Source: Capsaspora owczarzaki ATCC 30864
Taxonomy: Eukaryota; Opisthokonta; Filasterea
Direction: 5' to 3'
Assembly: GCF_000151315.2 (NCBI RefSeq)
Contig: NW_011887292.1
Span: forward strand, 3,060,063-3,124,062
Length of the DNA stretch: 64,000 nucleotides
Shown here: piece after piece, positions 59,464-63,730 of the stretch
Numbering within the stretch: position 1 is the stretch's first letter
Layout of the letters: the number at the start of each line of letters is the position of its first letter
Program-made: the position numbers and the translations under genes
The notes under the pieces: generated by a model
The model's input: the letters and a program-made list of their open reading frames with translations, nothing else
The model's database searches: none
Told to the model about the DNA's origin: nothing

Positions 59464-62400
59464 ATGTTCTTACAAATGCGAATCTTTGTTCTGACCCTGA
59501 CCATACTGGTTGTCGGCGCGTTGGCGACAGAGGCTGCGTACTCTGTCGGCTGCTTCCCCGCCAACGAGCGCCGTAAGGCTTACTCTTCACCCTGTCACCT
59601 TCCCCGCCCTGGTTGCCCCGAGTGCTGTCCTTACTTAACGCGAGTATTTTTGAAATCGCCGTGGGAGGATGTTGAGACCAAGGGGTGAGAAAAACATTCC
59701 AAAACCGAACAAACCGAGCGACACTTCACTTTCACTTTCGCCGAGCTCTCTCGCTCAGCAGAGAGTCTCCTCAAGGAGGGGGCTCGCTCGCACATGCACA
59801 CACGAACACACACCTCTCCATACTGTACGAGTGCTCTGCTTCAAGTGAGACGGAGGAAAGGCGTGCCCCGAACCAGCTGGTGTGAAACGAGTTCCCATCG
59901 TTGTGCAGGAAGTCGCAATTGGCAAAATTCCTTTGATTGTAACAAAATAATTGTTTTGGTTTCCCCCCTATCTGGAGTGCGAGAAACACTTTCATGGTGC
60001 CGTTGCCAACAAGTATTTCTCGCTGTTGAGAAAAACAACTCGAAAACAACAACAACAAACAACAAGCAATTCACAAGGTAGCGCACGAAAAAGACAGCAA
60101 TAAACCCGCTGATGCTTCGGTGTTTTAAGCAGCGCAACTGTTGCCAGACTCCACAACATGCAGGGGGTGAGGCGAGAGTATCGAGCAAAAGGGAGGTGCA
60201 ATGATCTCGTATGTGACTTCGACCGGCACTGTTATTGTTGCTATGTGTTGGCAAGGATCCAACACATCATCACAAATTACCAAAAAAACAACGAGTTCAC
60301 ACCAAGTTATCCGATAAGCAAACAAATAAACAAAACCATCAAAAACAACATGGAACAACGCCTAAACAAGGAGGCGCTCTAATTATGTGCTGACCTGCAT
60401 GATATTCCCGTCAACCAGTGCCCCTTCGTTCAGACCTGGAGACTATCAACATTGTGCACAACAACTGGACGACATCGCGCCTCAGCGCTGCCATTGCGAG
60501 GATCTTCCTTGAGGTTAGCATTTGTCTCGCAAACTTGTTTGCCCCCCCCCCCGCTTCCTGAGAAGATGTTTCGCTCATCGCGCGCAACAAACCTTACACA
60601 CAGGAAAAGCTTGGCTTTCGGACAACCGATACCGAGCTGGTCACCGAGCAAGAGGTGTTTGACCGTCTGCATCATGGCACGGCCGACATTTTCCTCGAAG
60701 CCAACCCAGTGGACGTTGGCGATCTTATCGAGCAATTCGTCACCGTGGAACGCAGCATCTTGGATGGTGAGTCGTTCAGTGGTCGAGCCGTGTGTGCTTC
60801 TCGGGGTGTGCTTCGCGAGAAAACTTGCATCCACTCACTGCCTCGCTGCCTCCAATCAATTTGACCAGTCGGCCCGCTCGGAGTTTACCAGGAGTTTGGA
60901 TGGTACATCCCCGATTACGTTTGGAATGTCAGCAACGTGCTGGATACATACACTGGCTTTTTGTAAGCGAGCAACGCGCAGCGTGTGTAACGCTTTTGTG
61001 CGTGCTTGTCTCACCGCGTTGGCCGCACTGTCATTGTTCATGTCATTAGCAGCGACGAGAGTGTCATTGCTTTGTTCCATCTGGATTCCGTGCCGGTCGA
61101 CTTTCAACTGGAGAACATCACTTTGATCTCGGCGTTCAAGTCCATCGACGACGTCATGGCTAGCGCCGCATGCAATTCAACCTTGAACGCGACCGTATCG
61201 GTGACCGACTGCAAAGCGGCTATCGAGGGTGTCATCACCTTCATGCGCAACGAGGCGCACTTGAACTTTGCCGACGACCTCGTCCCTTTGTGGACCATGC
61301 CCGATTCTTATGAGACCCTGGACGCCACCATCATCCGCAATCTTGGCTTGTCCATGGAAATCGTCGTCCCGATTCCCTCAAACCTCGACAAGACTCAGAC
61401 GGAAGAGGCCCTCGTTGAATTGCTTCGCGATTCGTACGCTGCCAGGAAGCCGTTCATTTCGTACTTTTGGGAGCCTCAATACCTCTTTTCACACGAGTCA
61501 CCTGTCAAGCTTCGTCGCGTACAGCTACCAGACTATGATGCTGACTATTGCAACATTTGTAAGTGATCCAAAGGCCCCAATGATAGGAAGGAGGGAGCAC
61601 TTGCGAAGATTACTCACTGTTCATCACAACAACCCTCCACGACAACAGCCAGCAGCAATTATCGGTGCGAGTATCAACCGAATGTAATGCGCAAGATGGT
61701 CTCGTCCAAGCTTCCTGCAAAGAATGAGATTGCGTTTGATCTGGCCAAAGTCCTGCACTACGATGAAAATGAGCTGGAGGACATGCTCGGTCGCATGGAG
61801 TATGATGGCATGTCTGTCGACCAAGCGGCTTGCAATTGGGTGCTCAACAACTTTGAGTCGATGGAGACACTGCTGCCCGATCCGTCTCGCCTTGTTACGC
61901 CCTCGGAGGTCAACGGCAGCTTGCGCATCGCCTTTGTCATTCTCGCCGCTCTGCTCATCGCCTTCTTCTGCGTTCTGGCTGCTGGTACCTTCCACTACCG
62001 CCGCGTTCGTGTGGTGCTGTCTGCAAGCCCCGTGTTCCTGATGCTGATGCTGCTTGGCGCTGCTTGGTCCATGTTCTGGGTCATTCTGCTCTACGACGAC
62101 GCGCCGACCGACGCGATCTGCATTGCTCGCATCTGGGCCCGCCATCTCGGCTTTAGCCTGGTGTTTGGCGCCCTTGCTCTCAAGACCTACCGCATTGCTG
62201 CCATCTTCAACGTGAAGGCCACCAAAAAGTCCCACCAGCTGACCAACGTTCGCCTTCTGGTCCGATTTGGTGAAATCAACCTCTACGTGTGCGCCTTCCT
62301 GCTGACGTGGACGGTGGCCGGCGCTCCCACAGCGACAACGCTGGTGTCTCACAACAACAGCTATGCCGTCTGCAGCATCACTTGGTGGGACAATGCCATG

Positions 62401-62967
62401 TACCTGCAAGAGCTTGCGGCCATGCTTGGCCTCGCGTTCCTGAGCTACCGCGTGCGCAAGGCACCCTCTGCGTTTAACGAGTGCAAGCACATGGCGCTCG
62501 CCGTGTACAACTGGATTATCATTGGCGTTATTCTTCAGCTCATCCTGAACTCGACCACTGGCACGGCCGACTTTTACTTTGCCATCCAGTCGCTCGAGGT
62601 GCTCGTGCCCGTTCCGATTGCCATTCTGCTTTTGTTTGTGCCCAAGTTCTACCTGACGCTGCGTGGCAAGGGCAGCGAGGTGACGACCTCCAGCTTCCGC
62701 GGATCGAATCCGAACGGCAGCCACCCCAAGACTCCTTCTGACCCGAGCAACTCGAATGCCAAGGCGGCGTCTGGCGACATGGAAATGTCGTCTGGCAATG
62801 GTGTGGATAGCGAGACTGGCAGGCCTGAGCTGAGTGGCAAGGCAGCAGCAGCTGAATACAAGAACATTCGTCGCGAGAACATTCGCCTGATGCGCGAGAT
62901 GGAGGCAATGCGCACTCAGCTTCTGCGCTTGCACAATCCTCACTCTGGCACCGTAGAAGTCATGTAG
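59464..62967 (+). CDS. Class C (GABA-B-like) GPCR with an OpuAC-type betaine-binding ectodomain
   Basis: Exons 59464..59572, 60434..60513, 60604..60766, 60869..60962, 61050..61558 and 61649..62967 give 757 residues. A signal peptide (FVLTLTILVVGALATEAAYS) leads into an ectodomain (about 38-385) matching the bacterial OpuAC/ProX glycine-betaine/choline-binding family: TINIVHNNWTTSRLSAAIAR, EKLGFRTTDTELVTEQEVFD, GTADIFLEANP, GPLGVYQEFGWYIPDYVWNV, FISYFWEPQYLF and the typical end KNEIAFDLAKVLHYDENELE with DQAACNWVLNNF. Trp residues sit at positions that commonly build the aromatic cage for quaternary ammonium ligands. Seven helices follow (about 411-652), of 7tm_3/GABA-B type (SPVFLMLMLLGAAWSMFW, RIWARHLGFSLVFGALALKT, KTYRIAAIF). 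The tail ends in a coiled coil (about 719-750) as in GABA-B receptors. Intron 4 ends in TAGCAG, giving two possible acceptors 3 bp apart (61050 or 61053). Confidence 0.88.
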
Positions 62968-63630: not shown

Positions 63631-63730
63631 ATGCTGCACCTTTCGAGCACTTGCATTTGGTTGTTGATGGTGCTCTTTTGCACCACCGCCACCACAAACG
63701 CTGTTGGATGTTTCCCGCCCTCTGAACGAC
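63631..63730 (+). CDS. First exon of a probable second OpuAC-type receptor, gene continues past the right edge
   Basis: ATG at 63631 opens MLHLSSTCIWLLMVLFCTTA, a good signal peptide, then TTNAVGCFPPSER and a GTAAGA donor at 63731 in phase 1. The preceding receptor gene has the same layout: a signal peptide, then AAYSVGCFPANER, and a GTAAGG donor in the same phase at the same codon. The shared VGCFP..ER motif, same strand and same splice phase argue for a tandem duplicate. The other exons lie beyond the window (intron 1 of the first copy is 861 bp), so the ligand-binding and membrane domains are not seen. Confidence 0.65.

Follow-up and report, generated by a model that had tools for sequence, protein, structure and literature searches.

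Predicted class C receptors with OpuAC-type sensors, some with near-identical signalling bodies, in Capsaspora owczarzaki

Introduction

In animals, class C G protein-coupled receptors (GPCRs) and receptor cyclases often carry ANF flytraps. The locus studied here raises the question of whether a sensor from another binding-protein family could take the place of that flytrap on a class C signalling body, and what such a receptor would sense. It lies within a 64,000-nucleotide stretch of the C. owczarzaki genome (C1:3060063-3124062), which we call the window and which we analyzed against the 27.46 Mb of the genome in 29 contigs. The original prediction for this locus described a class C GPCR built from six exons that uses a bacterial-type OpuAC module, of the kind that binds betaine or choline for ABC importers, as its sensor.

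Results

Exon structure of the window gene

The window gene, T1, occupies positions 59464-62967 of the forward strand, and its six exons join in frame as predicted, with GT/AG borders and an open frame of 762 amino acids. From Pfam matches and hydropathy, the order of the encoded parts is a hydrophobic leader, OpuAC, a full-length class C seven-helix (7TM) domain and a helical tail. Exon 1 (59464-59572, 109 nt) holds the start codon, the leader (residues 1-32, hydrophobic in a Kyte-Doolittle scan with a cut-off of 1.4) and the start of a CFPxxER motif, of which CFP and ER are kept in 12/12 rows of the paralogue alignment. Exon 2 (60419-60513, 95 nt) carries the first OpuAC motif, INIVHNNWTTS; an alternative acceptor at 60434 is also in frame, and the paralogues favour 60419. 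Exon 3 (60604-60766, 163 nt), exon 4 (60869-60962, 94 nt, with the segment GWYIPxYV) and exon 5 (61050-61558, 509 nt) encode further portions of OpuAC, and exon 5 includes an insert that is missing in all five bacterial homologues aligned. The end of the ectodomain, the 7TM domain, the tail and the stop codon all fall in exon 6 (61649-62967, 1319 nt), where the 7tm_3 domain takes up positions 61912-62646. Near the C-terminus, a heptad-like segment (62845-62943, residues 723-755) is kept in all 12 rows by eye, and from this reading we consider it a candidate coiled coil. Exon 1 of a tandem paralogue, T2, also lies inside the window (63631-63730, forward strand), with the rest of T2 beyond the window end.

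Identity of the sensor and of the signalling body

OpuAC (PF04069) matched the T1 protein in two stretches, the better one at residues 45-145, with an E-value of 2.1e-14 and 54.2 bits against a cut-off of 21.2, while ANF_receptor gave no match to it at E<=1. OpuAC thus beats ANF_receptor in this ectodomain, as had been anticipated, and T1 has a sensor unlike the one found in known animal class C receptors. The same result was obtained across the 12 paralogues introduced below: OpuAC was matched in every ectodomain at E<=1 (best 3.2e-20) and ANF_receptor in none of the 12 at that threshold, leading us to reject a standard ANF flytrap as the sensor of the family. The same Pfam library does detect ANF elsewhere in this genome, next to three further class C 7TMs. 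In the gene models of T1 and its paralogues, OpuAC stands N-terminal to 7tm_3 in one protein. When the OpuAC profile was run on the unspliced genome it found three places only, T1 not among them, probably because the exons are short. Among solved structures, a profile of the 12 ectodomains matched five PDB sequences, with DmpX (7yle) at 1.1e-16 and 4xz6 at 2.3e-9; three betaine-type binders match it at 3.9e-6 to 3.9e-5.

The signalling body of T1 is class C, in line with the original prediction: 7tm_3 matched residues 412-656 over nearly its whole length (profile positions 4-251 of 251) at 2.6e-39 and 135.8 bits, against a cut-off of 33.5. The count of seven helices rests on this full-length match, since hydropathy (Kyte-Doolittle, cut-off 1.4) resolves only six separate stretches after residue 400. 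In class C GPCRs a cysteine pair links TM3 to the second extracellular loop; C481 and C565 of T1 align with cysteines in 12/12 rows, and a disulfide between them is predicted. A phmmer search of the PDB with residues 412-660 placed GPR158/mGlyR nearest (2e-21), followed by GPR179 (5.5e-18), GABA-B2 (7.4e-11) and mGlu2 (3.2e-9). The description of this domain as GABA-B type was therefore right as to class and approximate as to type, with GPR158/mGlyR ahead of GABA-B2.

A family of twelve receptor genes

A genome search with the T1 ectodomain located 12 class C genes, T1 included, that carry this module; they sit at eight separate places. T1-T4 form a tandem array, three genes are on C11 (C11a-c) and two on C2 (C2a and C2b); C6 and C9 have a single gene each, and the last (C1d) is on C1 away from the array. 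C11a and C11b (L036/L019 and L022/L037; C11:453304-460676) are arranged head to head, ∼0.7 kb apart. Eleven of the 12 were modelled by spliced alignment to the T1 protein, and exon 1 of T2, T3 and T4 was set by hand from the CFPxxER motif. Every one of the 12 models has an open frame and GT/AG borders, with recurring exon sizes near 95/163/94; intron phases 1,0,1,2,1 are exact in 10/12, with C11c as modelled lacking one intron and C1d having one extra intron of 60 bases. Since these models lean on T1 as the query, small exon borders may be off. As modelled, T1 is one of 12 predicted receptors built on one shared exon plan.

The family bears directly on whether the fusion could be an artefact that joins two adjacent genes, one for OpuAC and one for 7TM. 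The models are known from the genome alone and those of the paralogues were built with the T1 protein as query, which leaves some room for such an error; yet the same join, with like flanking intron phases, is possible in 12/12 paralogues at the eight places. On the strength of this common join we reject separate genes for sensor and 7TM, and regard an artefact of this kind as extremely improbable.

Divergent sensors on near-identical bodies

Within the tandem array, the ectodomains of T1-T4 share 52-63% identity and their synonymous sites approach saturation (pS 0.66-0.78), whereas the 7TM and tail share 97-100% identity with dS of 0.09-0.19. In T1 the step in identity occurs inside exon 6 near position 61888 and the similarity ends near the stop codon, giving a homogenised tract of about 61888-62965 (borders approximate) that is near-identical in T1-T4 and lies between strongly diverged flanks. 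The four genes show no such likeness in intron 5 or in their 3′ flanks. The exon 6 counterparts of T2-T4 are in L034 and L035, and the similarity of T4 drops towards either end of the tract.

We compared fourfold sites between sensor and body in ten pairs, with p-values that take sites as independent. Between T1 and T2, 33 sensor sites are the same and 63 differ, against 190 and 12 in the 7TM and tail (p=7.5e-28), and the contrast is present in all six T1-T4 pairs (p<=1.2e-10). It is also present in C11a-C11b (p=1.8e-13) and in C11a-C2a (p=8.9e-8), but not in the control pairs C11b-C2a (p=0.87), C9-C2b (p=1.0) or T1-C6 (p=0.12); a fourth control pair, T1-C11a, gave p=0.05. Since C11a and C2a are unlinked, either conversion is not confined to adjacent genes or C2a arose later by copying of C11b. 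In the 7TM tree T1-T4 form one clade with support of 1.000; in the sensor tree the position of T1 is weak (0.174).

Synonymous constraint was rejected as the sole cause of the near-identity, given that the same region of T1-T4 has pS of 0.53-0.69 against the other clades. For the T1-T4 pattern we favour gene conversion confined to the body, as the simplest reading. A recent duplication of this segment beneath older sensors, a form of exon-segment shuffling in place of ongoing conversion, would also give near-identical bodies, and the tract does begin near the junction of sensor and 7TM and end near the stop codon. One of its borders, however, falls within exon 6 and away from any intron, the copies are dissimilar in intron 5 and in the 3′ flanks, and the spread of dS among them would fit several events. 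We consider such a duplication unlikely, though deserving some weight beside gene conversion.

Binding pocket and candidate ligands

The nearest solved sensor, DmpX from marine bacteria, is the binding protein of an ABC importer. According to the text of its description (PMC10030565), it binds DMSP via Trp35, Thr64, Trp84, Glu113, Trp152, Ala153, Tyr200 and Trp202. Mapped by alignment, these positions correspond in T1 to W53 (exon 2), T82 and N102 (exon 3), F132 (exon 4) and, in exon 5, Y241, a gap at Ala153, Y292 and W294, so that several pocket aromatics are common to both proteins while Glu113 and two of the four cage Trp are not kept. In this alignment-based mapping of a cage that varies by clade, T1 is aromatic at four of the five cage positions, the exception being Asn at Trp84. 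Of the four cage Trp, W53 and W294 are kept in T1, and the other two are replaced by Tyr and Asn. Over the 12 paralogues, F, W or Y fills 48/60 cells at the five cage positions against an ectodomain baseline of 10.1%, a count reached by 0/20000 random sets of five gap-free columns, though it is partly circular because the positions come from alignments that reward aromatic matches.

The cage differs between clades, and a ligand common to all 12 paralogues is therefore unlikely. T1-T4 keep Trp35 and Trp202 and have aromatics at the Trp152 and Tyr200 positions, with Asn at that of Trp84. C9, C2b and C1d keep Trp35 and Trp84 and have Tyr at 202; every one of the five positions is aromatic in C9 and C2b, and four are in C1d, which has Gln for Tyr200. 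In C11a, C11b and C2a, Trp35 is present, Tyr stands at 84 and Thr at 202, and C11c and C6 are without Trp35 and Trp202, each keeping only one DmpX cage Trp. Across these last five genes the Trp202 position is Thr, Ala or Gly. Outside the cage, Thr64 is kept in 6/12 paralogues and Glu113 in 0/12.

Genomic neighbourhoods of bacterial homologues provide a second view of the ligand. A plasmid tblastn search with the C9 sensor gave 46 records, mainly from alphaproteobacteria (best 4e-19), while the T1 sensor found only two, so that the link to choline genes comes via the paralogue C9. Of five bacterial loci opened, two were without annotation; a choline-sulfatase gene lies three genes away in one (L047), a choline dehydrogenase gene adjoins in another (L048), and neighbouring ATPases are annotated as betaine/proline/choline type in L047 and L049. 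A bacterial scan from bacterial queries returned close kin of the queries, with 80 kept of 207.

On these grounds a quaternary-amine or sulfonium ligand is plausible for the T1 sensor. The betaine or choline originally proposed was a fair guess, weakened by the fact that only two DmpX cage Trp are found in T1 and one in C11c and C6. It is quite possible, if somewhat short of likely, that the receptor architecture is as described and the sensors have left the quaternary-amine class for amino acids, other amines or peptides, in which case OpuAC would record descent and not ligand. The Asn at Trp84 in T1-T4, the patchy Thr64 and absent Glu113, the loss of Trp35 and Trp202 in C11c and C6, and an ectodomain identity of only 32-36% between T1-T4 and C9/C2b/C1d all point that way; the aromatics that T1-T4 retain at four positions, and the C9, C2b and C1d cages, argue for a ligand of the original class. 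The variation in pocket residues between clades would also suit an ectodomain that is a degenerate or structural remnant on receptors signalling without a small ligand. We think this very unlikely: the sensors of the 12 copies keep their frame, six invariant Cys and many further invariant residues despite mostly large divergence at synonymous sites, and in the pairs compared dN is lower than dS.

OpuAC and other sensors elsewhere in the genome

OpuAC probably also occurs on a second, unrelated body. At about C2:2648000-2652300, on the minus strand (L001:700-2691 and L044:1-1335), there is an OpuAC ectodomain that lies in one open frame (1.6e-9), with one apparent transmembrane stretch (by eye). 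After it come a kinase-like segment (a 90-residue fragment, 1.3e-22) that reads HRN where kinases usually have HRD, and a nucleotidyl cyclase domain (3e-58). This is probably a single gene, as read from the sequence. In the PDB the cyclase domain is matched best by adenylyl cyclases (AC5, 3.7e-64), ahead of ANP receptor 1 (3.9e-48), and its KIKTIG and YDLWG motifs presumably point to the adenylyl type. A similar arrangement, with ANF, is seen in the receptor guanylyl cyclases of animals.

The genome search with 7tm_3 gave 34 matches, which we merged by eye into at least 29 class C genes (one weak, at 34 bits). Seventeen of the 29 are outside the OpuAC family, and ten of these loci were scanned with Pfam over the locus extent: nine gave an ectodomain family and one (L006) only 7tm_3. 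An eleventh gene, on C14, has an ANF match just upstream, which makes it one of three non-OpuAC class C 7TMs with ANF either within their own protein frame or immediately before it. Two further ANF matches, on C15, have no 7tm_3 match beside them. Class C genes at L025, L029, L032, L024 and L004 carry ectodomains with TIG and Laminin_G_3, 5_nucleotid_C and Ephrin_rec_like, or Beta_helix. A further class C receptor (L011:754-3765, minus strand) has a Peripla_BP_5 ectodomain (3.9e-19) with no ANF_receptor at E<=0.001, and may represent another binding-protein variant used as a sensor.

Discussion

For this species, the best explanation draws on sequence comparison, namely on the join of OpuAC to a complete 7TM, the 12 paralogues with their shared exon plan and the near-identity of 7TM and tail in the tandem copies, and we hold it, taken as a whole, to be likely. 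T1 encodes a predicted class C GPCR in which an OpuAC-family ectodomain, of the bacterial ABC-importer type, replaces the ANF/LIVBP flytrap that is common among animal class C receptors. Dimers are general for class C GPCRs, and these receptors would presumably form them too. The ectodomain may close on a small cationic solute of the betaine, choline, DMSP or TMAO class, and this closure would be passed to the 7TM and then to a G protein. Gene conversion would keep the signalling body uniform while the sensors diverge, such that different copies could read different ligands through one pathway.

Other class C receptors share parts of this design. GPR158/mGlyR, the animal metabotropic glycine receptor with the nearest solved 7TM, also joins its class C body to a sensor other than ANF, here a Cache domain with an EGF-like domain (PMC12716839) and not OpuAC. 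GABA-B and mGlu receptors have a class C 7TM like T1 but an ANF flytrap (PMC12716839) and no OpuAC. That 2025 eLife survey reports that class C receptors outside the Metazoa vary in their extracellular domains; its text does not name OpuAC among them, although its figures or supplements may list it. The closest precedent is the fungus Allomyces macrogynus, where the text of Krishnan et al. (2012, PMC3251606) places OpuAC in the N-terminal part of six named class C receptors, an arrangement like that of the T1 family. The swap of ligand module proposed for T1 agrees with its sequence and has this precedent. For the OpuAC members, that text does not describe a tandem family, an exon plan, 7TM homogenisation or a pocket analysis. 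For C. owczarzaki it counts 20 class C receptors and reports TIG, 5_nucleotid_C and ANF among them. In the openly licensed literature we found OpuAC class C receptors only in the Allomyces report, and no report of a eukaryotic OpuAC-adenylate cyclase or of gene conversion in class C GPCRs. OpuAC-class C fusion is thus already known, and what we did not find in print is the 12-gene family, the homogenisation of its bodies and the probable OpuAC-cyclase gene.

Taken further, the two OpuAC bodies could belong to a system of variable sensors on constant bodies, with conversion keeping the GPCR bodies uniform and the sensors specialising on cationic solutes or choline-type head groups; we offer this as a speculative and rather doubtful proposal. 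If true, the OpuAC receptors would be candidates behind the response of Capsaspora to lipids with phosphocholine head groups. As the text of PMC13171883 gives it, two-tailed phosphocholine lipids are active in Capsaspora, and choline, phosphocholine and lyso-lipids are inactive; with free choline inactive, this link is only a lead. T1-T4, and C11a against C11b and C2a, with closely similar bodies and differing sensors, would form a natural set for matching sensors to ligands. More generally, the family suggests that, in a single-celled lineage near animals, class C receptors could exchange their ligand module for one from another branch of binding proteins.
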